Positions 47,321 to 64,000 of a stretch of 64,000 bases of DNA are shown piece after piece (within the stretch, counting starts at the first letter, position 1; every line of letters begins with the position of its first letter). The DNA is taken from assembly GCF_900106805.1 (NCBI RefSeq), contig NZ_FNNP01000001.1:1240001-1304000 (forward strand), in the 5' to 3' direction. The stretch is from Ruegeria halocynthiae (GTDB taxonomy: Bacteria > Pseudomonadota > Alphaproteobacteria > Rhodobacterales > Rhodobacteraceae). Both the position numbers and the translations under genes were made by a program. A model generated the notes under the pieces. That model searched no databases and had not been told where the DNA came from. It saw nothing but the letters and a program-made list of their open reading frames with translations.

Positions 47321-48661
47321 TCAATGTTCCCGAAATGCGCGCGACATACTGTCGACTATTGGCTTGGCGATATAGGCCGCAAAGGTGCGCTCTTCGGTCT
47401 GAATCATGATCTCTGCTGGCATACCGGGCGTCGGCACAAAGCCCCGCACACGGCCCATCTCTTCCGTGGACAGGGAGATGCGCGCCAAATAGACCTCTTG
47501 CGGCATACCTTCTGAATCTTCGAGCAGTGAATCGGCAGAGACGTAATACACTTCGCCTTCAAGCACCGGAGTTGTTCGTTGGTTCAGCGCCACCAGCCGA
47601 ACCGTTGCGATCTGCCCGGTCACAACGCTGTCGATATCGGTACGTGGAATCTGCGCCTCAATGATCAGCGGCGCATCGGCGGGCAGGATCTCGGCAATCT
47701 GTTCACCGGTTTCGATCACTCCGCCGGGCGTGTGGTGGTGCAGTCGAACAACTGTACCTGTGACCGGTGCGCGAACCACGGCGCGGTCCAGAACGCTGCG
47801 GGCCTGACGCGCTTTTTCACGCACGCTTTCAAAGTCGGCTTCGATAACTCCCAACTCATCCAACGCGGCTTCGCGATAGGCTGAACGCGTGCGCAGTATC
47901 TGTTCTTCGTATTTGAGCAGCATCTGGTTGATCTCGGCCGTCTCAGCCCGCAGCCGCGCCAACTGACCTTCGGCTTCGGCTTGCACTCGCCGGATCGTGT
48001 TCAGATCACCCTTGCGCACAAGACCCTTCTCGAACAGCGAATACTTAGTGTCGTACTCTTCTTGTAAAATGTCCGATCGGCGCTCCATGCTGGATAACTG
48101 CGCTTCGAACCCCGAGGCCCGAATTTTCAACGCCTCCATGTTGCGTTGAAGCAGCGCTATGTCATTCAACAAGGTCTTACGCGAAATATTGAAGCTCAGT
48201 TTTTGGCTGTCGAGAATCGTCATGACCTCGACGTCATCTGATGCCTCGATCAACGCCGGCGTGAAGACGAGCTGTTCTTGTTCGCTATGCTCGGCCAAAA
48301 GCCGTTCAGTCATGGCCTGAAGGCGGATTTTCCGTATGAATAGCTCACGCTCATTGGCCTCTGCCGAGGTCTGATCAAGCGTCATCATGATTTGACCGGC
48401 TTGAACCGCTTCTCCTTCCGAGACCAGAATGTTTTCGATGATGCCACCTTCCAGGTGCTGCACGATCTTATTGCGGCCGGTAGCGACAAAGCTGCCTTGT
48501 GCAATAACTGCAGCCGCCAGCGGTGCACTGAAGGACCAGACACCAAAGCCGCCGAAACAGACAATCAGCATGACAAGCCCTATAATGATGAACTTGCCGA
48601 TCGAGCGTGGAACCTCGGCATACCAAAGCCCGGGATCGTCGGTGCGCGCCACTTCATTCAT
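47321..48661 (-). CDS. Type I secretion membrane fusion (HlyD/PrtE-type) protein
   Basis: 446 aa periplasmic adaptor. One membrane span near the N-terminus (about 24-45, IIIGLVMLIVCFGGFGVW), a biotinyl-lipoyl-like lead VQHLEGGIIENILVSEGEAVQAGQ (about 67-90), a long alpha-hairpin coiled coil (about 100-300), and the returning half VVRAPVTGTVVRLHHHTPGGVIETGE (about 290-315), then a beta-barrel. It bridges the ABC protein to a TolC-type outer membrane channel, which is not encoded here. It starts 3 bases after the ABC gene stop, so the two are one operon. Confidence 0.94.
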   Translation of the reverse strand: MNEVARTDDPGLWYAEVPRSIGKFIIIGLVMLIVCFGGFGVWSFSAPLAAAVIAQGSFVATGRNKIVQHLEGGIIENILVSEGEAVQAGQIMMTLDQTSAEANERELFIRKIRLQAMTERLLAEHSEQEQLVFTPALIEASDDVEVMTILDSQKLSFNISRKTLLNDIALLQRNMEALKIRASGFEAQLSSMERRSDILQEEYDTKYSLFEKGLVRKGDLNTIRRVQAEAEGQLARLRAETAEINQMLLKYEEQILRTRSAYREAALDELGVIEADFESVREKARQARSVLDRAVVRAPVTGTVVRLHHHTPGGVIETGEQIAEILPADAPLIIEAQIPRTDIDSVVTGQIATVRLVALNQRTTPVLEGEVYYVSADSLLEDSEGMPQEVYLARISLSTEEMGRVRGFVPTPGMPAEIMIQTEERTFAAYIAKPIVDSMSRAFREH

Positions 48662-48664
48662 CGC

Positions 48665-50974
48665 TTAGTCCCCCTTGCCCTGTATCTCGGGCGGTTGCTG
48701 GCGCGGCCCGTTGAGCTGTTCCAGCACCTGTTCGCGCTGACCAAACAGCGCCACGCGCCCATCAGTCAGCAGCATGATCTTGTCGACAACACTTAAGAGC
48801 GTCGGCTTTTGCGTGATCACAACCACCGTGATCTTGCTTTCCCGGGCCTGCTCAATCGCCAGCGCCAGCGCCTTGTCCCCAGCTACGTCGAGGTTCGAGT
48901 TCGGCTCGTCCAGAACAACAAGCCGTGGGTTTCCAAAAAAGGCTCGCGCAAGCGCGATACGTTGTTTTTGGCCGCCTGAAAGGGGTGAACCATCTGCAGT
49001 CACCACAGTCTCATACCCCTGGGGCAGCGTTGCGATCATATTGTGTACGTCAGCCAGAACAGCGGCGTCGTGGATTTGCTCATCCGTCGCATCGGCACGC
49101 ATCCGGCCAATATTGTCCTTGATGGTGCCAGGGAATAGCTGCACGTCCTGCGGCAGATATCCGATGCTTTCACCGAACTGGCGCGGATCCCAGTTGCGGA
49201 TATCCATAAGGTCCAGCCGGACACTTCCCGAGGTTGGAAGAACCGATCCCACCAGCGTTTTACCAAGTGTCGTTTTACCCGCCCCGGAATTTCCGATGAT
49301 CGCCAACGTCTCACCCGGGTTCAGCGCAAAGGTAATCCCGTTCAGAACGACCCGCTTGGTGCCGCCAGGGACATAGAGAAGGCGTTCTACGTCCAGCCGC
49401 CCTTCGGGCCGCGGCAGGCGCAGTTTTTCGTATTGCAGAGCTGAATTTGACAACAGAGCCTTGATCCGCGCAAAGGCGCCCCGCGTCAGCAGGAAGGTAT
49501 TCCAACCTTCGATCGAGCCTTCGATCGGTGCAAACGCACGTCCCGCGATGATCGAGGCCGCGATAACCATGCCGCCTGTGATCTCACCCTGCAGGGCCAG
49601 AAATGCGCCCCACCCCAGAATGCCAATCTGAGTCAGCAGACGCACAGCGCGCGAGATCGCGGCGAAGATCACATTGCGGTCCTGCGCCTTGACTTGCCAG
49701 GTTAGCGATTGCGCGGTGTCGCGCCCCCATATGCGCACTGCCTCGGGGATCATCGCCAATGCATTGATAATCTGACTGTTGCGCGACATCGAATCCAGAT
49801 GTTGGTTCGCCAGTGATTGCGCCTGATTGGCCTTGGCAAATGGCTTGGCCGTCATCTTTTGATTCACAAGCGCGATGACCATGAGGATCAGAGCGGTAGT
49901 CACAACGATCATTCCCAACTGCGGGTGCACCAGAAAGATCATCAAAATGAACAGAGGCGCAAAAGGCACGTCGAGGAATGAGATCAATGTGCCCGAGACC
50001 AGAAAGCCCCGCACCTGCTGCAGATCACCCAAGGTCTGATACTCGCGCCCGTTACCGTGTAGCGACGCATGGGCAGCAGCGCTGAGAACCGGAGCGCCAA
50101 GTTGGGCCGCAACCTCGACTGCGGTGCGCATCAGCATGAACCGCCGGACCGCGTCGAAGGCAGACTGGAAAATCACCGCACCAGCAACAATCGCGGTCAG
50201 CATGATCAGCGTATCCAGCGACCGGCTGGTCAGCACCCGGTCACTGATCTGAAACAGGTAGATCGGGATTGCCAGGATCAGGACGTTTGTTGCACAGGTC
50301 AGCACAAGCACGAAAGCCAGATTGCGCCAGATTGCGCGAAGCGAAGTGCGCAACGTTTTTTGGAAATCCTCGGGCGGGGTACGTTTGTGGAAAGTTTGGG
50401 GTGGCCCCTTGCCATCGCCACCACCCGTCCCCGGGCGCAGCAAGGGTTGGTTTGCCTTGGCCTCGATCGTGGTGCCCATGCGGTCTTCACCGTCCGACGA
50501 CGCAGAGGGGGTCATGCGCGCAGTCGATTGATCGGCGGTTTCACAATCGGGGGTATCGGCATCGGCCACCCCAGTGTCGCCACCCGCAGGATCCTTATCT
50601 TGCGCGGGTTGCGACGACGCACGCCGAAGGGGAGAGCCGGCGCGCGGTTGTGACATTGGATCTTTCTGCTCTGCCTGACTTTGCCCCGGGCCATCGGGAT
50701 TTGTTGCCGCCTGAGGCGGTGTTTCCGGTTCTCCTGCACGCGCCACCGGTTCGGCGGATGGTGCACCGGATTGATCTACAGACTCGGGATTGGATTCGGT
50801 GTCTGCCAACTGCATCTCTCTTGTCAGACGCAGGCGGGAGGCCGTGTTGGAGACGTTGTTCTCGTTTGGCTTTGCCACGCGATCACGGGGTTCCAAGTTC
50901 AACGGACCTCCGCCTCCGTGCCGGTCTAGGGGACTTGCAAATCGGGTACGGCGCGACGAAAAAACGATCGACAT
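48665..50974 (-). CDS. Type I secretion ABC transporter (PrtD-like) with long disordered N-terminal extension
   Basis: 769 aa. Residues 1 to about 190 are low-complexity and rich in Pro, Gly, Ser, Asp and Gln, with no helix-forming pattern. The PrtD-like core starts near 200 (FQKTLRTSLRAIWRNLAFVLVL), has six membrane helices, then a nucleotide-binding domain: Walker A GNSGAGKTT, signature LSGGQKQR, Walker B LVVLDEPNSNLD. Usual PrtD proteins are about 570-590 aa, so the extension is extra. The start is supported by GGAAGG 7 bases before ATG 50974. No peptidase C39 domain. Lies 36 bases after the 648-aa gene, pointing to that protein as substrate. Confidence 0.93.
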   Translation of the reverse strand: MSIVFSSRRTRFASPLDRHGGGGPLNLEPRDRVAKPNENNVSNTASRLRLTREMQLADTESNPESVDQSGAPSAEPVARAGEPETPPQAATNPDGPGQSQAEQKDPMSQPRAGSPLRRASSQPAQDKDPAGGDTGVADADTPDCETADQSTARMTPSASSDGEDRMGTTIEAKANQPLLRPGTGGGDGKGPPQTFHKRTPPEDFQKTLRTSLRAIWRNLAFVLVLTCATNVLILAIPIYLFQISDRVLTSRSLDTLIMLTAIVAGAVIFQSAFDAVRRFMLMRTAVEVAAQLGAPVLSAAAHASLHGNGREYQTLGDLQQVRGFLVSGTLISFLDVPFAPLFILMIFLVHPQLGMIVVTTALILMVIALVNQKMTAKPFAKANQAQSLANQHLDSMSRNSQIINALAMIPEAVRIWGRDTAQSLTWQVKAQDRNVIFAAISRAVRLLTQIGILGWGAFLALQGEITGGMVIAASIIAGRAFAPIEGSIEGWNTFLLTRGAFARIKALLSNSALQYEKLRLPRPEGRLDVERLLYVPGGTKRVVLNGITFALNPGETLAIIGNSGAGKTTLGKTLVGSVLPTSGSVRLDLMDIRNWDPRQFGESIGYLPQDVQLFPGTIKDNIGRMRADATDEQIHDAAVLADVHNMIATLPQGYETVVTADGSPLSGGQKQRIALARAFFGNPRLVVLDEPNSNLDVAGDKALALAIEQARESKITVVVITQKPTLLSVVDKIMLLTDGRVALFGQREQVLEQLNGPRQQPPEIQGKGD

Positions 50975-51010: not shown

Positions 51011-52957
51011 TCAGGCCAGCATGGTCTGCAGGCCATCGGAGGAATTCGCCATTTCGCTCGGCGTAAGATCGTTACCATTCGGACCAATGCCGTTGTCATA
51101 GCCGGGTATACCCGCCTCTTCCATCAGGACGGCAATCGCCTCGTTGGTCATCTCGCTGATTTCCTCGTTTGTTGGCATGTCGATCAGGCTCGCCTGATGC
51201 AGCAACAAATCGGAATAAGATCCATCCTGCGCCATGACCACCGAATCCACTCCGGCCTTGGTGACGTTGGCCGCATTCAGCAAAGCATTGCTGCCCGCCA
51301 GAACCTCGGTCTCATCGGCATGAGGACCATTCAGATGAACGTCATCCTGATCCGCAAGGACAGTGGATTGCTCGGCGACATTGACCTGTACCAGCGATCC
51401 GTCGATCTTGAGGACACGCATCTGCTCCATGCCTGCAAACATCGGATCATTCATCAGCGCATCTTCCAGCGCAGCCATGTCGTCCTCATTCAGAGCCATC
51501 GCTTCGGCCATCGAATCCTGCATCTTCTGATGTGTGTCTTCGCCCTCTTTCTTGAGCGAAACCTCGTTCATGATCAGGTTCTCGTCCGATCCGTCGATGG
51601 GACCCGGCAATCCGCCCGTAATCACATCGTCATCCATCAATACATGTGTCTGGATAAACGCATCGACTGAAATCATGTCACCTTCGATCATGATCAGGTC
51701 GTAGTAGCTGCCGAGTTGCAGGATGTTCGTGACATCGACCAGTTCATTGTCACCCAACGCATAGAGCGTGGTCGTCGCCGTAATCTCGGCGTCGATATGA
51801 TCGATATCCGTTGCATCAATGCTTTGTTTGACGAAATTCGCAACGATCAGGTCGGTGGTAATCCAGTCGACATGAACAAATGTCGGAGCATCATCGTCAC
51901 TCGACCCTTGCTTCAACCACGGGGCTGACTTGCCTTCGACCTCTATCGTCGAAGAGTGCACCACTTTCGAATCCGATCCGCCATTCGTACCCTTGTCCAT
52001 GTCTGATACAACGGCGACCTGGCTGACCATAGTCAGTTCGATCGATTTACCGCCAACCGCGATATAGGGCGCATCCACCCACGCCACCGTCGCGCTGAGC
52101 TCGTTGATCGCAAGGTTACCACCCGCAATTACAGTGTGACCATCTGCGAATTCGGCCCCCTCTTCACGATCCCATTCGGCGGGCATCGCATCAGGTGTTT
52201 CATCTTCCTCTTCCTCGTCCGGCTGATGGTGAGCGGGCAGAAGGTCCGCCCACTCAGGGGCTTCGTCCACGTGCTCACCATTGACGATCACACCCATCGC
52301 ATCTTCGCCATGGAACTGATAAACAACTGCGCCTTCAACCTCGACGTTAATGGGCGCCAGCATCTGTTCGGCCAACTCCTCGACATACTCGACCGACAGG
52401 TAGTCCTCGATCATGAGTGAGGGAAGTGAGAATGCGTGCATCGAGGTCGCAACCTGCATGGCCGCCTCGGCCTGCGCAATAAGCTGATCGACGTCGCGGA
52501 AATCGCCCTCTCCGACAACATCATTGTCGCGTAAGAATATCTTCTGGAACGTATAGGTCACTGCCGACCCAATAAGTTCCGTCACAATCTCGAGTTTCTG
52601 TTCGATAATTATCGTCGCCGCGATGCCGGTGAATACTTCGGGCAGCGGTGGGCCGGATGAAGGTGGAGGCTCAAGCGCAATGACCGTCTGCAGTTCCGGC
52701 CCTTCAGATGGTGGTGGGAGTTCAAGAGTGGCGGGGGGGGTGTCAAGCCGATAGGACAATGGACCATACTTGCCCGGGTCCAGTTCCAGATCCGTCTTAA
52801 TGCGAATCTTTGCGGGATCTTCCAACTCGTCCAGTTCCGCCTTGCGTCGGTTGGCGGTGAACTCTTCGTACTGATCCCTAAGCCGGGCTTTTTCAATCGT
52901 AAGATCAAAAGTTCCAATAAAGTGTGCAATCGTTTCGGTAACACTATCGAATGACAT
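51011..52957 (-). CDS. Large acidic repeat protein, candidate type I secretion substrate
   Basis: 648 aa, strongly acidic, with no signal peptide and no Cys seen. Residues 1-60 are charged and helical, 72-108 Pro-rich, 110-270 mixed with a DEEEEDE run (248-254). From about 280 on there are at least three degenerate copies of a roughly 39-residue unit with spaced Asn, Val-Asp, Gly and Gln (281-319, 404-442, 557-593), with a partial copy at 460-468. There are no RTX GGxGxD nonapeptides. The hydrophobic tail LQTMLA resembles C-terminal export signals in general form only. Its position between the 812-aa gene and the ABC/HlyD genes suggests a secreted or surface protein; no family is recognised. 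Confidence 0.85.
   Translation of the reverse strand: MSFDSVTETIAHFIGTFDLTIEKARLRDQYEEFTANRRKAELDELEDPAKIRIKTDLELDPGKYGPLSYRLDTPPATLELPPPSEGPELQTVIALEPPPSSGPPLPEVFTGIAATIIIEQKLEIVTELIGSAVTYTFQKIFLRDNDVVGEGDFRDVDQLIAQAEAAMQVATSMHAFSLPSLMIEDYLSVEYVEELAEQMLAPINVEVEGAVVYQFHGEDAMGVIVNGEHVDEAPEWADLLPAHHQPDEEEEDETPDAMPAEWDREEGAEFADGHTVIAGGNLAINELSATVAWVDAPYIAVGGKSIELTMVSQVAVVSDMDKGTNGGSDSKVVHSSTIEVEGKSAPWLKQGSSDDDAPTFVHVDWITTDLIVANFVKQSIDATDIDHIDAEITATTTLYALGDNELVDVTNILQLGSYYDLIMIEGDMISVDAFIQTHVLMDDDVITGGLPGPIDGSDENLIMNEVSLKKEGEDTHQKMQDSMAEAMALNEDDMAALEDALMNDPMFAGMEQMRVLKIDGSLVQVNVAEQSTVLADQDDVHLNGPHADETEVLAGSNALLNAANVTKAGVDSVVMAQDGSYSDLLLHQASLIDMPTNEEISEMTNEAIAVLMEEAGIPGYDNGIGPNGNDLTPSEMANSSDGLQTMLA
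51179..52117 (-). repeat. Degenerate 39-residue protein repeats in the 648-aa protein
   Basis: Three segments align without gaps over most of their length: Asn281-Asp319 (52001-52117), Asn404-Asp442 (51632-51748) and Asn557-Asp593 (51179-51289). Shared positions are Asn at 0, Asn or Asp at 4, Val-Asp at 13-14 (copies 1 and 3), Gly at 22, Gln at 31-32 and a closing Asp. The pattern of alternating hydrophobic residues suggests beta-strands or a beta-solenoid. Alignment was done by eye. Confidence 0.5.
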
Positions 52958-53085: not shown

Positions 53086-55524
53086 TTAGACCTCGGTATC
53101 GTCGCTCGAGTAAGTCGAGGTCATCGAACCACCAACCATGGTCGTGTCGACCGAGTTACCAAGCACGTTGGCACCCATGACGATCGATTGGTTGAAGGCT
53201 GATGTATCGACTACCGCAGCCGCCGATGCATAGGACTCACCGTTGACGATACCGTCGCCACCGTTGTTCGAGCCCCAGGTACCGGCGTTTCCACCCGCAC
53301 CACCAGCACCGGAATATGCACCAGATGCTTCACCACCGGTATTCATCGCACCCGTGGTATCGCCGCTGGTTGCAGTACCCATGACCGCGCCGCTGGTTCC
53401 GCCTGCTGCGGTTCCCGCGCCACCGGCACCACCTGCACCTGAGTACGCAGTGCCAGTCGCACTACCCGTACCGGTTGAGGTCGCGTCGTTGTCCGAGTTT
53501 GCTGCGCCACCGTAACCGGCAATCGCTTCGGCAAGACTGTCGGCTGAACCATCGGTGTCAGCAGTCGACCAGACCTGACCCGCACCGCCGTCACCAGCTG
53601 TGTTGGTCGCGTCCGCCGAACCCGCACCGCTACCGGCCGAGCTGGACGTCGGGGTGGTTGTACCACCGGCACCAGCGGTACCATCAGCAGTCGCTGCACC
53701 AGAACCCGAACCCGTGGACATGCCATTGGTCGAGTTGCTTCCGCCATCTCCACCTGAACCGTCTGGGGTCTGGGTATTGTTGGTGGTTCCGTCAATGTCA
53801 CCCGGTGTCTGCGTGATGTCAGGGCCACCGGCCGTTTGATCACCAACACCTTGTGCATTTGCATCTGTATCGACGTAGCCGCCACCTGCACCACCGGTTC
53901 CGGTTCCACCGGCTCCTGGGCCACCAGTACCCGTACCACCAGTACCTGTACCACCGGTACCCGTACCGCCAGAACCCGTACCACCGGTACCTGTACCGCC
54001 AGAACCTGCACCACCAGTACCACCGTCGCCGCCAGTACCGTTCGAGTTTCCAGCAGCTGCTTCTTCTTCAGCTTCCGGTTCTTCTTCCTCGACCACTTTC
54101 AGGAACGGGAAGGCTTCTTCGATAGTGCCGGAGTTTCCACCGATACCGTCTCCACCATTGGCGTTGCCGCCAGATCCGGCACCACCGGAACCCGCGCCAC
54201 CAGAACCTGGACCGCCAGAACCCGGACCGCCAGAACCTGCACCACCAGAGCCAGGACCACCAGAACCGGAGCCGCCAGTACCACTACCGCCATCGGCATC
54301 ATTGTAGCCAAGTGCGCCCGCACCAGCGAGACCCAGACCCAGGTTGCTTCCTGCGGTCGCGCCGTTCGCCTGATTGCTACCAGAGCTCGCGTTATCCGCC
54401 GAACCACTCGTCTGAGCGTTGCCGTCTCCGGCGTCTGCACCCTGTGCGGATGCATCTGTACCGGCCAAACCAAGACCCGCGCCCAATGCGCCGGAAGCCT
54501 GATCGCCACCATTGGCGTTGCCGCTAGCGCTCGAGCCTGACAGACCAAGACCCAGACCAAGACCAAGCGATCCAGCGTCGCCGCCTGCACCACCAGTTCC
54601 TGTTCCGCTTGCGTTCGAGCTACCGGTATTGTTTGCACTCGAGGTACTGTTGGCATTACCGCCATTGCCACCGGTGCTGTCACCATCAGCATGTGAACCA
54701 GACAGGCCTAGACCAAGGCTCGCATTATATGCATCACCCGAACCGGCACCATTGCCACCAGTTGCGTTGGCGTCCGCGCTTCCGGAGTGTCCTCCAAATG
54801 CCAGAGCGGTGCTACCGTGCGTACCGCCTGCGGCGTCACCACCGTAGCTCGTGCCGCCTTGGCCAGACGCGCCGCCATCGGCTTCGGCGTCAATGCCTTC
54901 TTCCGCATGGGCAGAACCACCCGTCGCGTTGCCGCTTTGGGTAAACGTACCACCGTTCGAAACGCTGGCACCGCTCAAGGTGTCATTGTCGTTCAGTGTG
55001 GCGGCCTGGTTGTTGATTGATGAGAAATCATTGCCTGGGCCATCAAGTGAGATATCCAGATTGATGTCATTGCCGGGATCATAGTCCAGGTCATCGCCAG
55101 CAGTAATTACATCACGCGTCGAAGCGTAATCTGAAACATCGACGTCAACCTTGTCGTCGTCGCGCGGAATCCATTCACCGCCGCTAAAGTCGATATCAAC
55201 CGTAGCATTGTTGGTGTTACTGTCGTTGCCACCATTGGTCTGAGAATTAGAGTCGTTACCACCATTGGTGTTGCTGTCGTTACCACCATTGGTGTTGCTG
55301 TCGTTACCACCATTGGTGTTGCTGTCATTCCCACCATTAGTGTTGCTGTCATCGCCACCATTGGTGTTGCTGTCATCGCCCTGCTGCTGTTGCTGTTGCT
55401 GCTGTTGGGCATTGATGTCTTCAGCTTCAACAACCTCTTCTTCGACCTGAGGTTCATCTACCACGGGGTCCTGATCTTCGATGACTTCTTGAACGTCAAT
55501 CATAGGAGTTGATCGTTGTACCAT
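53086..55524 (-). CDS. Giant Gly/Ala/Ser/Thr-rich repeat protein, candidate secreted matrix or surface protein
   Basis: 812 aa from ATG 55524 (GGAAG 5 bases ahead); the longer open frame upstream has an atypical basic, Cys-containing composition and was not used. Layout: an acidic N-terminus with VQEVIEDQDPVVDE; a run of nine Gln at 40-48; seven NDSNTNGG-type repeats (50-105); an Asp-rich linker (110-190); then about 550 residues of Gly, Ala, Ser, Thr and Asn tracts including GSGGPGSGGAGSGG and GTGGTGTGG arrays. The C-terminal 50 residues differ (NQSIVMGANVLGNSVDTT), and their G-x-N-x3-N pattern echoes the repeat of the 648-aa protein. No signal peptide and no RTX motif. First gene of the type I secretion operon. 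Confidence 0.85.
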   Translation of the reverse strand: MVQRSTPMIDVQEVIEDQDPVVDEPQVEEEVVEAEDINAQQQQQQQQQGDDSNTNGGDDSNTNGGNDSNTNGGNDSNTNGGNDSNTNGGNDSNSQTNGGNDSNTNNATVDIDFSGGEWIPRDDDKVDVDVSDYASTRDVITAGDDLDYDPGNDINLDISLDGPGNDFSSINNQAATLNDNDTLSGASVSNGGTFTQSGNATGGSAHAEEGIDAEADGGASGQGGTSYGGDAAGGTHGSTALAFGGHSGSADANATGGNGAGSGDAYNASLGLGLSGSHADGDSTGGNGGNANSTSSANNTGSSNASGTGTGGAGGDAGSLGLGLGLGLSGSSASGNANGGDQASGALGAGLGLAGTDASAQGADAGDGNAQTSGSADNASSGSNQANGATAGSNLGLGLAGAGALGYNDADGGSGTGGSGSGGPGSGGAGSGGPGSGGPGSGGAGSGGAGSGGNANGGDGIGGNSGTIEEAFPFLKVVEEEEPEAEEEAAAGNSNGTGGDGGTGGAGSGGTGTGGTGSGGTGTGGTGTGGTGTGGPGAGGTGTGGAGGGYVDTDANAQGVGDQTAGGPDITQTPGDIDGTTNNTQTPDGSGGDGGSNSTNGMSTGSGSGAATADGTAGAGGTTTPTSSSAGSGAGSADATNTAGDGGAGQVWSTADTDGSADSLAEAIAGYGGAANSDNDATSTGTGSATGTAYSGAGGAGGAGTAAGGTSGAVMGTATSGDTTGAMNTGGEASGAYSGAGGAGGNAGTWGSNNGGDGIVNGESYASAAAVVDTSAFNQSIVMGANVLGNSVDTTMVGGSMTSTYSSDDTEV
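53880..54290 (-). repeat. Short Gly-rich coding repeats (GTGG and GSGG arrays)
   Basis: Two arrays of 9- to 15-base units, about 53890-54030 encoding Gly-Thr-Gly-Gly repeats and about 54165-54285 encoding Gly-(Ser/Pro/Ala)-Gly-Gly repeats. Units vary at third positions, so the protein sequence rather than the DNA is conserved, but length change by slippage is still likely. Confidence 0.7.
55210..55377 (-). repeat. 24-base tandem repeat encoding NDSNTNGG
   Basis: Seven copies of a 24-base unit (one with an inserted Ser-Gln pair), encoding Asn/Asp-Asp-Ser-Asn-Thr-Asn-Gly-Gly. Middle copies are nearly identical at DNA level (TTACCACCATTGGTGTTGCT and similar on the plus strand), which marks recent expansion. 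A Gln-codon run (55378-55407) sits directly beside it. Confidence 0.85.
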
Positions 55525-56137
55525 AATAACTTCCACTTTTACTGAAGCACCGGACCGCCATTCATCTACAAAGCGGTTACTGGCGCGGTTGAAAAAGGCT
55601 TTGCGCACAGAGTGACAAACTGAACACTCGCGCGGCAGTGAAGATCTTCTTTTAGGTTTGCCCCCCTTTCTCGGCCAAGCCGATTCCATAACCACGGAAA
55701 TTTCGCTGAAATACGCGGTCCGTGGGCACGTCAGGTTCAGTACTGCTTCACCAATTGAAGCCTGATCATCGTTGCAGCGAAGGAAGGATGTGCATAGCTG
55801 GCCGAAAGCATTAATTTCGGCAAATATTTGTTTATAAAGTGATTTAATTCAGATTTTGGTCGAATTTACGCCAAACCGGCAATGAAACAATCACATCTAA
55901 AGTATCAGTATTATTAACGTTGCTATTTCATCAGGTTACGCTGAAATCCATGACTCAAAACCTGATCAATAGTTCTAGTACCAACCCCATGAAATTGGAC
56001 CTTTGGTTGCCGAAACTCGTACTTTCAGCTATAGTAGTGCTCTATTTGAACTAAAAAGTTAGTGTTTTGCGCCACCCAAGTTCTGGGCCCGGTTTTAAGA
56101 TTCAGAGGGCGGCGTTTGTATTAGTGGGGGAAGATCA
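55525..56137. promoter_or_regulatory. Long AT-rich divergent control region of the secretion locus
   Basis: 613 bases between the 812-aa gene (minus) and the LuxR gene (plus), the longest gene-free stretch in the window. The part 55800-56060 is clearly more AT-rich than its surroundings (TATTTGTTTATAAAGTGATTTAATT and similar), which is typical of heavily regulated promoters. I could not fix promoter boxes or an operator with confidence, and saw no small gene with a convincing ribosome site. Confidence 0.6.
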
Positions 56138-57389: not shown

Positions 57390-57400
57390 GATCTTGCTGG

Positions 57401-57483
57401 TGCGGGCGGTGGGACTCGAACCCACACGGCACTAAGGCCTTCGGATTTTAAGTCCGATATGTCTACCATTCCATCACGCCCGC
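57401..57483 (-). tRNA. tRNA-Leu (anticodon TAA)
   Basis: On the minus strand the acceptor arms GCGGGCG and CGCCCGC pair perfectly, with discriminator A. The D-arm region is GATGGAATGGTAGACAT; the anticodon stem CGGA/TCCG encloses CTTAAAA with anticodon TAA; a long variable arm (GGCCTTAGTGCC) marks a class II tRNA; and the T arm is GTGGG-TTCGAGT-CCCAC. CCA is not encoded. It lies between the hypothetical gene and the catabolic operon. Gene-free 57484-57699 shows nothing else. Confidence 0.97.
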
Positions 57484-57699: not shown

Positions 57700-58743
57700 A
57701 TGAAAATAGTCGACAACCCGTTTCGAAATGGCTCGAAGTTATCAGATCTGGCACCTTATCCTTCGGTCGAAACAGGTCGACTGGCACAACATCGCTCTTT
57801 TTGTCCCGACTTTGTCGCAACGCCGCTGGCCGATGCGTCAGCGCTTGCGCCTGTCGCAAAACTTTGGGTCAAGGATGAGCGAGGCCGGATGGGTCTCGGG
57901 TCGTTCAAAGCATTGGGCGCAGCTTATGTCATTGCCTGTCAGGCAAATGACATGTCCGACACACCTGACGGCAACACCCTCAAGGGGTACACCTATGTCA
58001 CGGCAAGTGCGGGCAATCATGGGATGAGCATGGCCGCAGGCGCGCGTGTCTTCGGTGCTGACGCGGTGGTCTATATCGCCGAAACCGTACCCGAAAGCTT
58101 TGCCGATCGTCTGCGCGCACAGAACGCGCGGGTGGTCCGGGCTGGCTCGGACTATGCGGCCAGTATGGAAGCCGCCAGTCAGGCGGCGGATCAGAACGGT
58201 TGGACACTGCTCTCGGACAGTTCGTGGGAGGGATACACCGAACTGCCTCACTTGCTGATGGAAGGTTATCTGCAGATGGCCGTCGAAGCGGCCGAGCAAT
58301 GCCCCGAGGCACCAACTCACATCATTCTGCAGGCCGGTGTCGGTGGCATGGCTGGCGCAGTTGCCGCCTATGCGCGTGTTGTCTGGGGTGATGCACCGCG
58401 GATCATCGTTGTCGAACCGACCTCGGCCCCGGCACTGCAGGCCAGCATCGAAGCCGGGCAGTGTGTTTTTGCCGATGGTCCCGACAGCATAATGGGGCGG
58501 CTGGACTGCAAGGAACCTTCGTTGATCGCGCTGAACGGGCTCGCCCGCGATGCCGATCTGTTTCTCACCATGGACGATACAGAGGTGGCCGCGCAGCTTC
58601 CGGTTATGTCGCAGGCGGGATTGGAGACCAGTGCCTCGGGTGGTGCCGGAATTGCTGCTGTACTGGATGACGCGACCCGCAGCGAGCTGGGAATAGGTGC
58701 CAATGACAAAGTGCTCTGTATGCTGACAGAGCAGCCCGCATGA
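57700..58743 (+). CDS. Diaminopropionate ammonia-lyase-like PLP enzyme
   Basis: 347 aa fold-type II PLP protein. QHRSFCPDFVATPLADASALA and VKDERGRMGLGSFKALGAAYV (PLP Lys70) follow the DpaL pattern; TASAGNHGMSMA is the substrate Asn/Gly loop and QAGVGGMAGAVAAY the phosphate-binding Gly loop. DpaL splits 2,3-diaminopropionate into pyruvate and ammonia; E. coli YgeX is about 50 residues longer. Related enzymes act on threonine-like or ectoine-pathway amino acids, so the substrate is open. ATGA overlap with the M24 gene. Confidence 0.85.
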   Translation: MKIVDNPFRNGSKLSDLAPYPSVETGRLAQHRSFCPDFVATPLADASALAPVAKLWVKDERGRMGLGSFKALGAAYVIACQANDMSDTPDGNTLKGYTYVTASAGNHGMSMAAGARVFGADAVVYIAETVPESFADRLRAQNARVVRAGSDYAASMEAASQAADQNGWTLLSDSSWEGYTELPHLLMEGYLQMAVEAAEQCPEAPTHIILQAGVGGMAGAVAAYARVVWGDAPRIIVVEPTSAPALQASIEAGQCVFADGPDSIMGRLDCKEPSLIALNGLARDADLFLTMDDTEVAAQLPVMSQAGLETSASGGAGIAAVLDDATRSELGIGANDKVLCMLTEQPA

Positions 58744-59885
58744 CCGGTTTCACGCCAGAGGAATTCGCGGCGCGCGTTGCGCGTGCGCAGCACCGGATGG
58801 AGGCAAAGGGACTTTCGGCCCTGTTGCTGACCACCGAGCCCGAATTGCGCTATTTCACCGGATATCTCACCCGGTTCTGGGAAAGCCCGACCCGGCCGTG
58901 GTTCCTGATCGTACCAGCCACGGGTAAACCCGTTGCCGTGATCCCCTCAATCGGTGCAGCGCTGATGGCGCAGACATGGATTGATGACATTCGCACCTGG
59001 AGCGCACCCGATCTCGAAGATGACGGGGTGACCCTGCTGGCCGACACGCTAACCGAACTGACCCCCGATGGTGCCGAAATTGGCTGCCCCGACGGTCATG
59101 AGACACATGTACGGATGCCACTGGCTGACCTGAGGCGACTGCAATCCGGCATCGGCGCCCGCCATATATCCGGTGACCACGGCATTCTGCGCGCCCTGCG
59201 CATGGTGAAATCCGACGCCGAGGTTGCCAGAATACGGACCGCGTGCCAGATCGCAGCCCGCGCCTTTGCGCGTGTTCCAGAAATCGCATCGGCGGGGGTG
59301 GCGATTGATCAGGTGTTTCGTCAGTTTCAGATGCTCTGCCTCGAAGAGGGTGCCGACTGGGTTCCATATCTGGCCGGTGGGGCCGAACAGGGCGGATATA
59401 CCGATGTGATCTCTCCTGCAAAACCGACCCCTCTTGTCGCGGGCGACGTGCTGATGCTGGATACCGGCCTTGTCCGCGATGGGTATTTCTGTGACTACGA
59501 CCGCAACTGGTCGGTCGGCCCGGCCAGCGCGGCAGTCCGGGATGCACACGCCAGACTGATCGAAGCTTCAGACGCCGCATTCGATCAAGCCCGACCCGGT
59601 GCAACGGCTTCTCAGTTGTTTCACGCTATGAATACAATCCTGACCGACGGCGGCGTGGGCACAGATGCCGGACGTCTTGGGCACGGGCTGGGCATGTCGC
59701 TGACCGAATGGCCGTCGCTCATTCCCGGTGACCATACGGAATTGCAGGCCGGGATGGTTCTGACGCTCGAACCAGGTGTCGCAGTTAATGGCAAAATCCT
59801 CGTGCATGAGGAAAACATCCTGATCACCGAAGGTGCGCCGGAATTCCTCAGCCCCCGCATCGGACCGGAGATCCCCGAGTTATGA
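58740..59885 (+). CDS. M24-family metallopeptidase-fold hydrolase (Xaa-Pro peptidase/creatinase-like)
   Basis: 381 aa. The N-terminal creatinase-like domain (1-150, LRYFTGYLTRFWESPTRPWF) precedes a pita-bread domain with metal ligands: Asp in MLDTGLVRDGYFCDYDRNW (about 237-255), His in GHGLGMSLTEWPSLI (about 313-327), Glu in LTLEPGVA and Glu in LVHEENILI (about 340-360). Relatives include Xaa-Pro aminopeptidase, creatinase and ectoine hydrolase DoeA, so it may open a C-N bond in a non-peptide substrate. Coupled by ATGA overlaps to both neighbours, which supports a joint pathway. Confidence 0.88.
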   Translation: MTGFTPEEFAARVARAQHRMEAKGLSALLLTTEPELRYFTGYLTRFWESPTRPWFLIVPATGKPVAVIPSIGAALMAQTWIDDIRTWSAPDLEDDGVTLLADTLTELTPDGAEIGCPDGHETHVRMPLADLRRLQSGIGARHISGDHGILRALRMVKSDAEVARIRTACQIAARAFARVPEIASAGVAIDQVFRQFQMLCLEEGADWVPYLAGGAEQGGYTDVISPAKPTPLVAGDVLMLDTGLVRDGYFCDYDRNWSVGPASAAVRDAHARLIEASDAAFDQARPGATASQLFHAMNTILTDGGVGTDAGRLGHGLGMSLTEWPSLIPGDHTELQAGMVLTLEPGVAVNGKILVHEENILITEGAPEFLSPRIGPEIPEL

Positions 59886-60595
59886 ACACCTTGCCCTATA
59901 CGCTTGATCCCGACGATGCCTCTGCGGTGCCGATGGGGTTGATCGTTCTGCAAACCGATGAAACGATCGAACCCGAGTTCCGCACTCTTTTTGTCGATGA
60001 TAAAAGTCCCCTCTATGTCAGCCGTATTCCCAGCGGGTCTGAGGTCAACACCGACACGCTGGCGCAGATGGAAACCGATCTGCCCGCCGCCGCCGATCTG
60101 CTGCCCAAGGCGCGTCCCTACCGCGTGGTGGGTTATGGCTGCACCTCGGCCAGCTCGGTCATCGGGTCGGAACGGGTTGAGCAGATGGTCAAACAGACCT
60201 GCAATGTTCACACCGTAACCAACCCGCTGCGTGCAGCCGCTGCCTGTGCCGAACATCTGGGCGTCTCGAGATTCGCCCTGCTCTCACCTTATATCGAAGA
60301 GGTAAACACCCCTCTCCGGCGCGCGTTTTTCGAACACGGAATCTCGATGGATGTGTTTGGCACGTTCGGCGAATCAGAAGAGGCCAAAGTGGTGCGAATC
60401 TCGAGCGAATCGGTGATCGAAGCCGCATCACGACTGGGTGCGGATAAGGCGGTTGATGCGGTATTTCTGAGCTGTACCAACCTACGGACACTGGATGCAA
60501 TTCCAAGGATCGAAGCACAGATCGGCAAGCCGGTCCTGTCCAGTAACCAGAGTTTGGCCTGGCATATGAGATACCTGAACTTGTCGCAAATCTAA
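59882..60595 (+). CDS. Asp/Glu racemase-superfamily enzyme (maleate isomerase/arylmalonate decarboxylase-like)
   Basis: 237 aa. The two active-site cysteines of the superfamily are in place: GYGCTSASSVIG (about residue 84) and LSCTNLRTLDA (about residue 196). VTNPLRAAAACAEHLGVSRFALLSPYIEEVN resembles maleate isomerases, and the C-terminal SSNQSLAWHMRYL matches the same group. It interconverts isomers of a dicarboxylic or amino acid or decarboxylates a malonate; which one is unknown. Last catabolic gene before the transporter genes (133-base gap). Confidence 0.85.
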   Translation: MNTLPYTLDPDDASAVPMGLIVLQTDETIEPEFRTLFVDDKSPLYVSRIPSGSEVNTDTLAQMETDLPAAADLLPKARPYRVVGYGCTSASSVIGSERVEQMVKQTCNVHTVTNPLRAAAACAEHLGVSRFALLSPYIEEVNTPLRRAFFEHGISMDVFGTFGESEEAKVVRISSESVIEAASRLGADKAVDAVFLSCTNLRTLDAIPRIEAQIGKPVLSSNQSLAWHMRYLNLSQI

Positions 60596-60728
60596 GCAAA
60601 AGTGACGCTATGGACAGCTCATTCGCTTTACTGACTTGCAACCATTTGTTAGCTTCGGCTTCAATGCACGAGAAGATCAATGAAATCTGGATCAACCGGA
60701 TAATCCATTGACGCAACAGGGGGTCTTG

Positions 60729-61829
60729 TTGACCGACACACATATCGAAGACGCGTTTGTTGAATTTCAACGCGTTCAAAAATCGTATGACGGCGAGAAT
60801 CTTGTCGTCAAAGATTTAAACCTGGCGATGCCAAAGGGCGAATTCCTGACGATGCTTGGTCCGTCAGGATCGGGCAAAACGACCTGCCTGATGATGCTTG
60901 CCGGATTCGAAACCGCCACACATGGCGAAATTCTGCTGGATGGCAAACCGATCAACAACATCCCTCCGCACAAACGCGGTATCGGGATGGTGTTTCAGAA
61001 CTACGCTCTGTTCCCACACATGACCGTTGCGGAAAACCTGGCTTTCCCGCTGGAGGTCCGCAAGCTGGACAAATCCACGCGCGAGGCCAAAGTGAAGCGT
61101 GCGTTGGACATGGTGCAGATGGGGGCTTTCGGAAATCGACGCCCTGCGCAACTGTCCGGCGGTCAACAACAACGGATCGCCCTGGCCCGTGCGCTGGTGT
61201 TCGAGCCGGAACTGGTCTTGATGGACGAACCGCTGGGCGCGCTCGACAAACAGCTGCGCGAACACATGCAGTTCGAAATCACGCGTCTGGCGCATGAACT
61301 GGGTATTACAACTGTATACGTGACCCACGACCAGACCGAAGCACTGACCATGTCCGACCGCGTTGCGGTATTCGACGATGGCCGCATTCAGCAGTTGGCC
61401 CCGCCAGATCAGCTGTACGAAGAGCCTGAGAACAGCTTTGTCGCTCAGTTCATCGGTGAAAACAACACCATGGAAGGTGTAGTTAAATCCATCGACGGTG
61501 ACACCTGCCTGGTGCAGTTGGATGACGGATCGGAAATCGACGCCGTGCCGATCAACGTTCACAATCCGGGCGACCGCACCAAAGTCTCGATCCGGCCTGA
61601 GCGGGTGGAATTCAACAAGGACCGCCTGCACGCCGATGCGCATACGCTGAAGGCGACGGTCAAGGAATTCATCTACATGGGTGACGTGTTCCGCTTCCGT
61701 ATGTCGGTAGCTGGCAATGACGAGTTCATTGTCAAAACACGAAACGCGCCCGATGCCGTCCGACTGCAGCCCGGTCAGGAAATCGACATTGGCTGGCTGG
61801 CCAAGGATTGCCGCGCGCTTGACGCATAG
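60729..61829 (+). CDS. ABC transporter ATP-binding protein, PotA-like
   Basis: About 366 aa from TTG 60729, with AGGGGG just ahead; a TTG at 60708 would add 7 residues. Walker A MLGPSGSGKTT, Q-loop VFQNYALFPHMTV, signature LSGGQQQR, Walker B LVLMDEPLGALD, switch His VTHDQTEAL, and a C-terminal TOBE regulatory domain (about 280-366). Energises import with the binding protein and permease that follow; the PotA class serves polyamines, putrescine-like compounds and some opines or amino-acid derivatives. Confidence 0.93.
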   Translation: MTDTHIEDAFVEFQRVQKSYDGENLVVKDLNLAMPKGEFLTMLGPSGSGKTTCLMMLAGFETATHGEILLDGKPINNIPPHKRGIGMVFQNYALFPHMTVAENLAFPLEVRKLDKSTREAKVKRALDMVQMGAFGNRRPAQLSGGQQQRIALARALVFEPELVLMDEPLGALDKQLREHMQFEITRLAHELGITTVYVTHDQTEALTMSDRVAVFDDGRIQQLAPPDQLYEEPENSFVAQFIGENNTMEGVVKSIDGDTCLVQLDDGSEIDAVPINVHNPGDRTKVSIRPERVEFNKDRLHADAHTLKATVKEFIYMGDVFRFRMSVAGNDEFIVKTRNAPDAVRLQPGQEIDIGWLAKDCRALDA

Positions 61830-61832
61830 ACC

Positions 61833-61857
61833 AAGTCGCACACAACAAGTGCGACTT
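61833..61857 (+). other. Intercistronic hairpin before the binding-protein gene
   Basis: AAGTCGCAC (61833-61841) and GTGCGACTT (61849-61857) form a 9-bp stem with loop ACAACAA, 3 bases after the ATPase gene stop. No U run follows. Probably an RNA processing or stabilising element that allows separate levels for the binding protein. Confidence 0.55.
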
Positions 61858-61931
61858 AACCGAGGGACCGGCTGGCGAGAACCCGTGCGCTAGCTGACAA
61901 GACAACAAACGGGAAGTACTGGGAGTAACAC

Positions 61932-63023
61932 ATGAAACCAACAAAAACTCTGCTGACGGCAGCAGCGCTTGCTACGGCAGCTGGTGCCGTTTCCGCCGAA
62001 GAGATGACGATCGTCTCGTGGGGCGGTGCCTATTCCAAATCGCAGCTTAAGGCGTATCACGAGCCCTATTCGGAAAAATCAGGCATCACCATCCTGAACG
62101 ATGACAGCTCGGCCGAAGCAGTCGCCAAACTGCGGGCGATGAACGAAGCGGGCAACATCACATGGGATGTGGTTGATGTTGTGGCTGCGGACGCGATTCG
62201 CCTGTGTGACGAAGGTCTGGCCATGGAGATCGACCCTGACACCATGCTGGCTCCGGCACCCGATGGCACCTCTGCTGCGGATGATTTCGGTGACCTGCTG
62301 GTCAGCGACTGTTTTATCCCGCAGATCGTGTATTCGACCACGTTCGGCTATCGCACCGATCTGGTCGGTGACACACCGCCCAGCGATGTTTGTGCCGTGT
62401 TTGATCTGGAAACCTATCCGGGCAAGCGTTCGCTTGAAAAGCGCGCGATCAACAACATGGAATGGGCTCTGATCTGTGATGGCGTTGCGAAAGATGACGT
62501 TTATGACGTTCTGGCCACCCCTGAAGGTCAGGATCAGGCGTTGGCAAAACTGGGCACCATCAAGGACAACGTTGTCTGGTGGTCTGCCGGTGCGGACACG
62601 CCGCAGCTTCTGGCCGATGGCGAGATCATCATGGGCTCGACCTATAACGGTCGTCTGTTCAGCGTGATTGAAGAGCAGAAGCAGCCTGTTGCCATGCTGT
62701 GGGACGCACAGATCTTTGACCTGGACGGCTGGATCATTCCTGCCGGTCTGAGCGAAGAGCGTCAACAGCGCGCGCTGGACTACATCATGTTCGCAACCGA
62801 CACCCAGCGTCTGGCGGATCAGGCCAAGTACATCTCGTACGGTCCGGCCCGTGCCTCTTCGGCTCCGCTGGTGGGTCAGCATGCCGACCTGGGTATCGAC
62901 ATGGCGCCGCACATGCCGACCGATCCTGAAAATGCCAAGAACACGTTCCTGTATAACTACGAGTTCTGGGCTGACTATCGCGACGATATCGAAGCCAAGT
63001 TCCAGGCATGGCTGGCGCAATAA
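61932..63023 (+). CDS. Periplasmic substrate-binding protein, PotD-like
   Basis: 363 aa with a Sec signal peptide (LLTAAALATAAGAVSA, cleavage before EEM near residue 22). The mature start MTIVSWGGAYSKSQLKAYHEPYSE and the internal VVWWSAGADTPQLLADGEIIMGSTYNGR are typical of the SBP_bac_8/PotD type. Captures the solute in the periplasm for the PotA/PotB-like transporter. Acidic and aromatic residues suggest a cationic or amino-acid-like ligand, but the ligand cannot be set. Strong GGGAG ribosome site at 61920-61924. Confidence 0.93.
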   Translation: MKPTKTLLTAAALATAAGAVSAEEMTIVSWGGAYSKSQLKAYHEPYSEKSGITILNDDSSAEAVAKLRAMNEAGNITWDVVDVVAADAIRLCDEGLAMEIDPDTMLAPAPDGTSAADDFGDLLVSDCFIPQIVYSTTFGYRTDLVGDTPPSDVCAVFDLETYPGKRSLEKRAINNMEWALICDGVAKDDVYDVLATPEGQDQALAKLGTIKDNVVWWSAGADTPQLLADGEIIMGSTYNGRLFSVIEEQKQPVAMLWDAQIFDLDGWIIPAGLSEERQQRALDYIMFATDTQRLADQAKYISYGPARASSAPLVGQHADLGIDMAPHMPTDPENAKNTFLYNYEFWADYRDDIEAKFQAWLAQ

Positions 63024-63046
63024 GCTTTTGATTTCATGAAACAGTC

Positions 63047-63066
63047 GGGGGCGGTGCGCCGCCCCC
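63047..63066 (+). other. Intercistronic hairpin between binding-protein and permease genes
   Basis: GGGGGCGG (63047-63054) and CCGCCCCC (63059-63066) with loop TGCG form a very stable 8-bp hairpin 24 bases after the binding-protein stop, without a U run. Such stem-loops commonly protect the upstream message so that binding protein exceeds permease. Confidence 0.65.
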
Positions 63067-63093
63067 AGACCCAAGCTGAACCAAGGGGCACAG

Positions 63094-64000
63094 ATGACTG
63101 ACGCAAGCCAAAATGCGGGACCGATGCTGGCAGCGGACGGAACGCCGCTCAAGCAATCTCTGGCACGTTCACTGCGGCGGCAGAAGTTGCGGGCATTGAT
63201 GCTCGTTGCTCCGCTTCTGCTTTTCGTCATGTTTTCCTTTATCGTGCCGATTGCGTCGATGCTGTTCCGATCGGTCGAAAACAGCATGGTGTCGGATACC
63301 CTTCCGCTCACGGTGGAAGCGTTACAAAGCTGGGACTCCCAAAGTGGTGAGCTGCCGGATGAAGCGGTGTACGATGCATTCGTTCGCGATATGGTCGTTG
63401 CCATCGATAACAAAGAACACACTCGCCTTGGCTCGCGTCTGAATTATGAAGAAACCGGTATGTCTTCGTTGTTCCGAAAGTCAGGGCGAAAGCTCAAGAA
63501 GCTGGACCCCGAAACAGACGGCCCTTTCAAGGAACAGTTGATCGAAATCCACGAAGGCTGGGGCAAGCCGAACACCTGGGCGGTGATCAAGACTCACTCG
63601 CCTGCAGTGACCAATGGCTATTTCTTGAACGCCGTGGACATGCGCCGCACCCCTGAAGGCGCGCAATCGCAGCCCGAAGACAAACAGATCCTGATCAAAC
63701 TGTTCGGTCGTACATTGTTCATGTCACTGGTAATCACCGGGGCCTGCATCCTGTTGGCCTATCCGGTCAGCTACCTGCTGGCGACCTTGCCGATGCGTGT
63801 GTCAAACCTGCTGATGATCCTTGTGCTGTTGCCTTTCTGGACCTCACTGCTGGTCCGCACGTCGGCGTGGAAAGTAATGCTCCAACAACAGGGCGTGATC
63901 AACGAAACGCTGGTCTGGCTTGGGCTGGTGGCCGACGATGCGCGGCTGGTGATCATCAACAATCAGATCGGCACGATCACCGCGATGACGCATATCCTGC
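63094..64000 (+). CDS. ABC transporter permease, PotB-like (3' end outside window)
   Basis: ATG 63094, open to the last base of the window (302 codons). The N-terminus is cytosolic, then a membrane span at about 36-57 (LMLVAPLLLFVMFSFIVPIAS), a long periplasmic loop of about 145 residues (58-205, charged, with GWGKPNTWAVIKTH), then further spans (SLVITGACILLAYPVSYLLA, LMILVLLPFWTSLLVRTSAW). The start of the binding-protein-dependent permease domain is visible; the EAA loop lies beyond the window. The long first loop is characteristic of this permease subgroup. Confidence 0.9.
   Translation, partial: MTDASQNAGPMLAADGTPLKQSLARSLRRQKLRALMLVAPLLLFVMFSFIVPIASMLFRSVENSMVSDTLPLTVEALQSWDSQSGELPDEAVYDAFVRDMVVAIDNKEHTRLGSRLNYEETGMSSLFRKSGRKLKKLDPETDGPFKEQLIEIHEGWGKPNTWAVIKTHSPAVTNGYFLNAVDMRRTPEGAQSQPEDKQILIKLFGRTLFMSLVITGACILLAYPVSYLLATLPMRVSNLLMILVLLPFWTSLLVRTSAWKVMLQQQGVINETLVWLGLVADDARLVIINNQIGTITAMTHIL

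Follow-up and report, generated by a model that had tools for sequence, protein, structure and literature searches.

A conserved enzyme trio beside a PotABCD-type importer and a creatinase gene in Ruegeria halocynthiae: a candidate salvage locus for small nitrogen-rich zwitterions

We analysed a window of 64,000 nucleotides of Ruegeria halocynthiae (contig NZ_FNNP01000001.1, positions 1,240,001 to 1,304,000 of the forward strand) and, within it, the catabolic locus that runs from position 57,700 to the window's end. Three enzyme genes, hereafter the trio, are followed there by the genes of an ATP-binding cassette (ABC) importer of the PotABCD type, and the contig continues past the window with a creatinase gene. 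Positions past the window are given on the fetched stretch L002, in which a position equals the window position minus 62899. The features are as follows:

57700..58743, + strand: gene of a fold-type II pyridoxal 5'-phosphate (PLP) lyase, like diaminopropionate ammonia-lyase and of the Ala type (A104 in the motif SAGNHG; K70; D173)
58740..59885, + strand: gene of an M24 hydrolase, called M24a (Pfam PF00557 and PF01321)
59882..60595, + strand: gene of a EutA-like enzyme with the Asp/Glu racemase - arylmalonate decarboxylase fold (PF17645)
60708..61829 (start codon uncertain), + strand: gene of a PotA-type ABC ATPase (TIGR01187)
61932..63023, + strand: gene of a periplasmic solute-binding protein (SBP; SBP_bac_8, PF13416)
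63094..64000, + strand: gene of a PotB-type permease, cut by the window end, with its rest in the same contig
L002:2834-4069, past the window: creatinase gene (411 residues)
L002:4101-5072, past the window, convergent with the creatinase gene: agmatinase-family ureohydrolase gene (323 residues)
57398..57483, - strand: tRNA-Leu(taa), the locus boundary just upstream (ARAGORN)

Neighbouring genes of the trio overlap by four bases each (ATGA), and the EutA-like gene ends about 110 to 170 bases before the importer, depending on the choice of PotA start. Beyond base 64000, the contig carries the remainder of the PotB gene, then PotC, the creatinase gene and the convergent ureohydrolase gene. Pfam and NCBIfam both confirm the protein classes of the trio and the importer. 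Together with the coordinates, they bear out the original prediction of three enzymes joined by ATGA overlaps and followed by a PotA, SBP and PotB importer. That prediction had also placed the set outside known pathways, and all three enzymes indeed miss the cut-offs of their nearest named NCBIfam families. We did not find a described pathway matching the trio, and nothing on the gene set appeared among the literature matches listed. A scan for promoters and terminators returned chance-level signals only. Elsewhere in the window, the - strand at 53086-55695 encodes an 869-residue repetitive protein rich in Gly, Asn and Ser, with repeats of the GGNDSNTNG type; next to it are a 648-residue acidic protein (51011-52957) and what look by eye like the ATPase and membrane fusion protein of a type I secretion system (47321-50974). 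These genes might encode a secreted repeat protein together with its exporter.

The conservation of the trio and its neighbours was assessed in 55 genome loci with a relative of the EutA-like gene, retrieved by a single pattern-based contig search that favours close relatives; 32 of them are titled Ruegeria or Silicibacter, and three (L007, L048 and L049) are contigs of less than 7 kb. Genes in all fetched loci come from open reading frame picking, in which an antisense frame was sometimes chosen (L192, L193, L195), and 40 loci were re-checked by tblastn. Gene names at these loci denote similarity to the window proteins, while glycine-cleavage, hemA and similar names were given by eye unless a family score is stated. 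By tblastn, M24a is present in 50 of the 55 loci, the PLP lyase in 43, PotA in 50, SBP in 49 and creatinase in 41, with the ureohydrolase in 24, a DoeA-like M24 protein in 22 and an ArgE-like M20 protein in 27. The complete trio occurs in 41 loci, the trio with PotA and SBP in 38, and these five with creatinase in 31; M24a, the EutA-like gene, PotA and SBP are found together in 46. Gene order is conserved, and the gene set is therefore not the product of chance. The gene-neighbourhood comparison that the original prediction called for finds many genomes in which enzyme genes and importer are linked. As judged from sequence, the set of trio and importer is strongly conserved, yet not indivisible. 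Five loci (L042, L043, L044, L046 and L047), from AG-named isolates and metagenome bins, have the trio and the full importer with no creatinase at the locus, and the genomes of L042-L049, as assemblies of unstated completeness, yielded only distant M24 paralogues in a search for creatinase (E 2e-22 or weaker). Upstream of the trio, a flank that recurs in Ruegeria loci (L008, L012 and L022) contains a luciferase-like monooxygenase, an aldehyde dehydrogenase, a cupin whose UAAP-like match stays under the cut-off, and an ArgE-like M20 gene, and in L008 and L022 also a DoeA-like M24 gene.

Beyond close relatives, M24a is widespread: with alignment A2, 39 of the 289 alphaproteobacterial genomes sampled have it at E<=1e-100, and we did not find a substrate assigned to it. 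We read 38 stretches around M24a in this class sample, 15 of which were re-checked by tblastn. Two loci of one genus in another family (L124 and L127) have the trio divergent from a complete PotADBC importer, with SBP identities of 83% and 81%; L127 also carries creatinase (65%), and the L124 stretch an aminotransferase. In L117 and L118, an ectoine hydrolase gene (746 and 756 bits; cut-off 613) comes directly after the trio and in its orientation. In L128, a trio with an Asp-type PLP enzyme lies behind an EctD-superfamily dioxygenase, whose best NCBIfam family is a chlorinating enzyme (73 bits, under cut-off), and the same stretch holds the ureohydrolase (70%) and creatinase (56%). Glycine-cleavage-like genes were recognised near the trio in L122, L126 and L046/L047, and L119 has a gene matching the soxA/GcvT profiles below cut-off.

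A family sample of 198 genomes, with creatinase in 133, SBP in 127 and M24a in 95, was used to ask how often these genes are neighbours. Adjacency within 12 kb was counted from start coordinates, uncorrected for ancestry, and the samples overlap: L192 is the same record as L046, and G431 and G466 seem to correspond to L046 and L043. Of the 97 genomes with both SBP and creatinase, 15 have the two within 12 kb of each other, and six of these (G316, G332, G333, G381, G391 and G450) have no M24a near; SBP identity in G316, G333 and G450 is only 62, 48 and 65%. The class sample adds three genomes with the importer by creatinase and no M24a in the stretch (G267, G212 and G097, at L166, L168 and L169), with SBPs 78, 72 and 72% identical to that of the window. 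For SBP and M24a, the count is 14 of 79 genomes, five of them without creatinase near; the importer stands by the trio with creatinase not near in G327, G431, G458, G466 and G498, as well as in G183 (L124). Separation of the enzyme genes from the transporter elsewhere, which the original prediction had named as speaking against it, is thus found in part. M24a and creatinase are within 12 kb in 9 of 75 genomes, and SBP is there in all nine. Five family stretches with trio and importer and no creatinase (L192-L196) all contain the PLP lyase, M24a, the EutA-like gene, PotA and SBP. Three of them (L192, L193, L195) have an aminotransferase gene ahead of trio and importer, all on one strand, and DoeA-like and ArgE-like genes that run divergently from these; a DoeA-like gene at the edge of L196 brings the number with such a gene to four of five, and L194 has the ureohydrolase (76%). 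We also read 19 SBP stretches, mostly chosen away from M24a loci. Creatinase adjoins the importer in four (L166, L168, L169 and L176), or five counting G228 by coordinates, whose creatinase starts just beyond stretch L175. A curated ectoine hydrolase lies directly by the importer in L168 and L169 and one gene away in L174. Sequence and synteny together establish, at the level of gene neighbourhood, the importer as a hub that recurs by creatinase, by the trio or by both.

These counts bear on the explanation that the importer serves general uptake of the gamma-aminobutyric acid (GABA) or polyamine type and that the adjoining enzymes are unrelated, brought together by chance and shared ancestry. 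Relatives of SBP do stand alone or by hemA-like genes, SBP is near M24a in only 14/79 genomes with both, and GABA sensors are among its solved relatives. Set against this, 15/97 and 14/79 far exceed the ~0.6% that we estimate, uncorrected for ancestry, for two genes falling at random within 12 kb in ~4 Mb, and the pairing recurs, divergently, in a second family (L124, L127). We consider this explanation quite improbable and favour it least of those weighed here.

The importer itself is of the polyamine type only in part. The PotA-type ATPase scores 383 bits against TIGR01187, over the cut-off of 355.6, but PotB (156 bits of 348) and PotC (149 of 326) fall short of the polyamine equivalog cut-offs, and the NCBIfam scan matched SBP to no family, hence to no PotD family either. 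An ordinary polyamine operon was rejected on these grounds, the catabolic genes moreover not being polyamine enzymes. The nearest solved relative of SBP is 8jv1 (237 bits), named spermidine/putrescine-binding and represented by four entries, and GABA sensors and opine-type proteins come next (9d57, 6dgv, 4eq7). SBP is kin in sequence to the GABA and opine binding proteins, MotA and the agropine permease included, but closer to 8jv1. The arginine of its NGR motif is common to 8jv1 and 9d57. This residue (R241), together with W257, D258, D263 and D265, is invariant in 18 aligned SBPs from trio-linked, creatinase-only and other contexts; the arginine would suit a carboxylate, and the acidic residues an amidinium or guanidinium group. 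No literature was found on 8JV1, on a diaminopropionate lyase with creatinase, or on creatine with a SAR11 solute-binding protein. A hemA-like (5-aminolevulinate synthase-like) gene occurs near PotADBC in 4 of the 19 importer stretches (L159, L167, L171 and L173), the L171 copy scoring 646 bits, over the curated cut-off of 338.6. These neighbours may connect the importer with glycine or aminolevulinate. Stretches with neither creatinase, ectoine hydrolase nor hemA-like gene make up the rest of the 19.

The 411-residue protein encoded past the window matches creatinase 1chm at 536 bits (4.8e-160) over residues 13-409, and further creatinases at 534 and 512 bits, with every other match at 85 bits or less. 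Similarity to the solved creatinases therefore spans its full length, and its assignment as a bona fide creatinase, with predicted hydrolysis of creatine, is well founded by family. The neighbouring ureohydrolase scores 181 bits against the agmatinase family (cut-off 174.3), and among solved structures it is most closely related to an agmatinase and a guanidinobutyrase. Three soxA genes, for sarcosine oxidase alpha, exceed the cut-off in the same genome. The locus resembles described creatine utilisation in its creatinase and in the sarcosine oxidase subunits of the genome, but its importer is an ABC system, whereas CreT is a protein of the major facilitator superfamily. No role of the trio in the breakdown of creatine is known to us. 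Roseobacter denitrificans degrades creatine with no CreT homologue, its uptake route being left open in the available excerpt of PMC8864220, which cites Wawrik 2017, and the use of phytoplankton and animal creatine as a nutrient by marine bacteria is under discussion (PMC11366302, in excerpt). Elsewhere, in a streamlined genome of 1.2 Mb (G222), creatinase (65%) lies beside the gene of a 372-residue protein (L157, 8375-10711). By eye this neighbour resembled an amidinotransferase, but it had no NCBIfam match at 1e-40.

Within the trio, M24a has the five metal ligands of the prolidase group of M24 metallopeptidases (D, D, H, E, E) as D241, D252, H315, E344 and E358, all invariant in the 17 rows of alignment A2. 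The positions were placed by alignment to PepE, and we take the five residues to be metal-binding. When aligned to M24a, the creatinase and the DoeA-like protein have substitutions at several of these positions. The model of M24a, with a predicted local distance difference test (pLDDT) score of 88, is closest to EutD/DoeA 6yo9 (Z 39.8), tied with a Xaa-Pro dipeptidase (Z 39.3) and followed by creatinase (36.6). In sequence, M24a reaches 69 bits against EutD/DoeA ectoine hydrolase, far from the curated cut-off of 613. By these features, M24a is a metal-ligand-bearing prolidase/EutD-like enzyme, which might cleave X-Pro or another amide. The original prediction had related it to creatinase or ectoine hydrolase. 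Kinship of the enzymes with those of ectoine and creatine metabolism is supported. M24a as a creatinase was rejected, since creatinase does not share its metal ligands and is itself encoded by another gene, past the window.

The EutA-like protein scores highest against the EutA family (TIGR02990), with 156 bits, under the cut-off of 318. It has the two cysteines of the two-Cys members of the Asp/Glu racemase superfamily, C87 and C198, both invariant in the 19 rows of alignment A1, and a strict motif scan found the second cysteine motif in 63 of 72 proteins. We take the enzyme to be of the two-cysteine type of this superfamily, with both residues presumably in the active site.

The PLP lyase comes nearest to diaminopropionate ammonia-lyase in both sequence and model. 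Its best NCBIfam family is PRK08206 (246 bits, cut-off 276), well ahead of EutB (66 bits, cut-off 413), and its sequence relatives in the PDB are 5ygr/4d9g. The AlphaFold (AF2) model, of mean pLDDT 90, has the fold of that enzyme, with 4d9g nearest (Z 41.2, root-mean-square deviation 2.3 over 337 residues) and threonine deaminases as the next group (Z 35.1 and lower). Like the E. coli YgeX-type lyase, the protein keeps the PLP lysine (K70) and the equivalent of Asp189; unlike it, the protein has alanine at the position of Asp120 (Ala104, invariant in the 16 rows of alignment A3), carries the additional invariant residues R267, D269 and K271, and stays under the curated cut-off. A plain diaminopropionate lyase was rejected for this enzyme on the loss of Asp120, the lysine of the Lys77 and Asp120 pair being kept and the aspartate not. 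Alanine at this position is, we assume, the mark of L-only dehydratases, such as human serine dehydratase as opposed to serine racemase with its Ser84. The E. coli lyase accepts both D and L substrates, and Lys77 and Asp120 are described as its potential catalytic residues (PMC4000059, in excerpt). Because of the change from Asp120 to alanine, the use of both D and L forms by the E. coli enzyme, and the association of alanine with L-specificity, we infer that the Ala-type lyase is L-specific and requires a partner that inverts a stereocentre.

Across the loci read, the Asp120 position is alanine in 47 of 55 PLP proteins and aspartate in eight, all from distant loci (L110-L114, L128, L129 and L059) in which the gene lies beside M24a. 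These Asp-type proteins carry a TDGNHG signature and mostly have MAGLSCGE where the Ala type has R267, D269 and K271. Together, the eight loci look like a second module. A EutA-like gene adjoins in L113, L114, L128 and L129; in L059 the distance is 2 kb, and the tblastn re-check recognised no such gene in L110-L112. An M20 amidohydrolase gene adjoins in three (L112, L129, L059), that of L112 having DoeB2 as its best family, below cut-off. The distant loci bear on another explanation, in which an N-acyl, N-methyl or ureido/guanidino derivative of 2,3-diaminopropionate is broken down by the trio to pyruvate and ammonia, with the PLP enzyme a true descendant of diaminopropionate lyase. The four Asp-type proteins scored (L112, L113, L128 and L129, at 485, 485, 397 and 508 bits) all pass the PRK08206 cut-off, and this agrees with it, as do the company of M24a and EutA-like genes, the M20 amidohydrolases and the fold of the window enzyme. 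The window-type protein itself, however, misses that cut-off, has alanine for the catalytic aspartate and bears the invariant R267, D269 and K271. We regard this explanation as unlikely.

The closest known system is ectoine and 5-hydroxyectoine catabolism (eutABCDE, with the ueh/ehu importer), which likewise encodes a EutA-type enzyme, a PLP fold-II eliminase and an M24 hydrolase with an importer; relatives of the locus share with it an aminotransferase, a deacetylase and an Lrp-type regulator. They differ in that the trio misses the Eut cut-offs, M24a has metal ligands that DoeA-like proteins lack, the importer is PotABCD-type and a creatinase is attached. A canonical ectoine cluster was rejected, all Eut cut-offs being missed (EutA 156/318, EutB 66/413, EutD 69/613). 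EutC and EutE were not among the scanned operon products, the scan being confined to the operon. For hydroxyectoine, inversion by EutA followed by elimination by EutB has been proposed and not biochemically evaluated, as a 2018 review stresses (PMC5924519, in excerpt), and the role of eutABC is still termed proposed in a 2026 paper (PMC13188858, in excerpt).

The trio could alternatively form a parallel (hydroxy)ectoine branch, with the importer carrying both ectoines and creatine. Here 3-hydroxy-2,4-diaminobutyrate would be made by a DoeA-type hydrolase together with an ArgE-type deacetylase; the EutA-like enzyme would epimerise it and the PLP lyase dehydrate and deaminate it, a class III aminotransferase finishing the route and M24a acting on another acyl form. 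The one-strand arrangement of trio and curated ectoine hydrolase in L117/L118, the ectoine hydrolases by the importer in L168, L169 and L174, and the order of aminotransferase, trio and importer with divergent DoeA-like and ArgE-like genes in L192, L193 and L195 all fit such a branch. So does the Lrp/AsnC-type regulator of L047, which adjoins the trio, scores 69 bits (under the cut-off) and is comparable to those of eut clusters in the excerpt of PMC5924519. Yet beside the missing EutC and EutE and the missed EutA, EutB and EutD cut-offs, the DoeA-like proteins of L008 and L195 fall just below the cut-off (606 and 594 of 613), the Ruegeria genome has no ectoine hydrolase above it, and a DoeA-like gene was not found in 33 of the 55 loci. 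We hold this branch to be possible but doubtful.

The reading that we tentatively favour, at slightly less than even confidence, sees in the locus a salvage system in which one importer supplies small nitrogen-rich zwitterions to two catabolic arms. In the first arm, imported creatine would be split to sarcosine and urea by the creatinase, and sarcosine would be converted to glycine by the heterotetrameric sarcosine oxidases whose genes lie at other places in the genome. In the second, the trio would act in the manner of EutD, EutA and EutB: the bond opened or trimmed by M24a would be an amidine or an N-acyl (amide) bond, the EutA-like enzyme with its two cysteines would invert a stereocentre, and the diamino acid so formed would undergo L-specific beta-elimination and deamination by the Ala-type PLP lyase. 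We draw this analogy because EutA is the best family of the racemase-fold enzyme, the M24a model is near EutD, ectoine hydrolase and DoeA-like genes are neighbours in relatives, and an epimerase-then-eliminase order is given in the excerpt of PMC5924519. Most likely, the trio acts on an ectoine-type or N-acyl diamino acid or on a guanidino relative. The original prediction had suggested an N-acylated diamino acid or an ectoine-like ring; the ectoine hydrolases of L117/L118 and the DoeA-like and ArgE-like neighbours of L192, L193 and L195 agree with it, while the substrate itself is one that we infer. As a whole, that interpretation is partly supported. The carriage of creatine by the importer is supported by adjacency in several families and would not be exclusive.

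Several observations weigh against the two-armed salvage system. By tblastn, eight loci keep M24a, the EutA-like gene and the importer and have no PLP gene, L012 and L057 have the PLP and EutA-like genes with no M24a, and at L109 (G169) the PLP gene was not seen. Fifteen more M24a stretches from the family sample (L177-L191) have no such importer and no recognised common partner; all three enzymes are present in 12, the EutA-like gene not being picked in L184 and L185 nor the PLP gene in L190. The trio also occurs as a free-standing alphaproteobacterial module. SBP is near creatinase in 15/97, and near M24a in 14/79, of the genomes with both, and the importer is often alone: its 19 stretches contain creatinase in four, a hemA-like gene in four and M24a in none. 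Genome-wide co-occurrence of M24a, SBP and creatinase in the class sample gave odds ratios of 38 to 81, but a control family, the ectoine hydrolase TIGR02993, co-occurs with them equally (36 to 78). Either the control belongs to the same lifestyle, or all of these genes simply come with large heterotroph genomes. Co-occurrence was accordingly dropped as evidence of linkage, and our argument is confined to adjacency because the control is equally strong. Urease alpha was not found in the Ruegeria genome, in a search that did not extend to other routes of urea use. The best DoeA-like gene of that genome reaches 520 bits of 613 and lies away from the locus (L197:8200-9369; G000:C17:1432200-1433369). 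Finally, every stereochemical and substrate step of the scheme is conjectural. Apart from these points, the DoeA-like gene at L197 adjoins one for a metallo-beta-lactamase-fold-like hydrolase, recognised by eye, with no deacetylase recognised nearby.

The locus is built from known enzyme families and is not a new kind of system. In a stronger form of the salvage reading, which we consider rather unlikely as it stands, the PotABCD-type system would be the missing importer of creatine and of guanidino or amidino zwitterions in roseobacters and related Alphaproteobacteria. The trio would then be an undescribed module for a chiral amidino or diamino acid with no known degradation route, its epimerase being needed since the lyase has lost the residue for the D substrate. 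In any case, the importer is a concrete and testable candidate for the gap in creatine uptake of creatine-using roseobacters that the excerpt of PMC8864220 describes, and solving the trio would name enzymes now labelled ammonia-lyase, aminopeptidase and racemase in many genomes.

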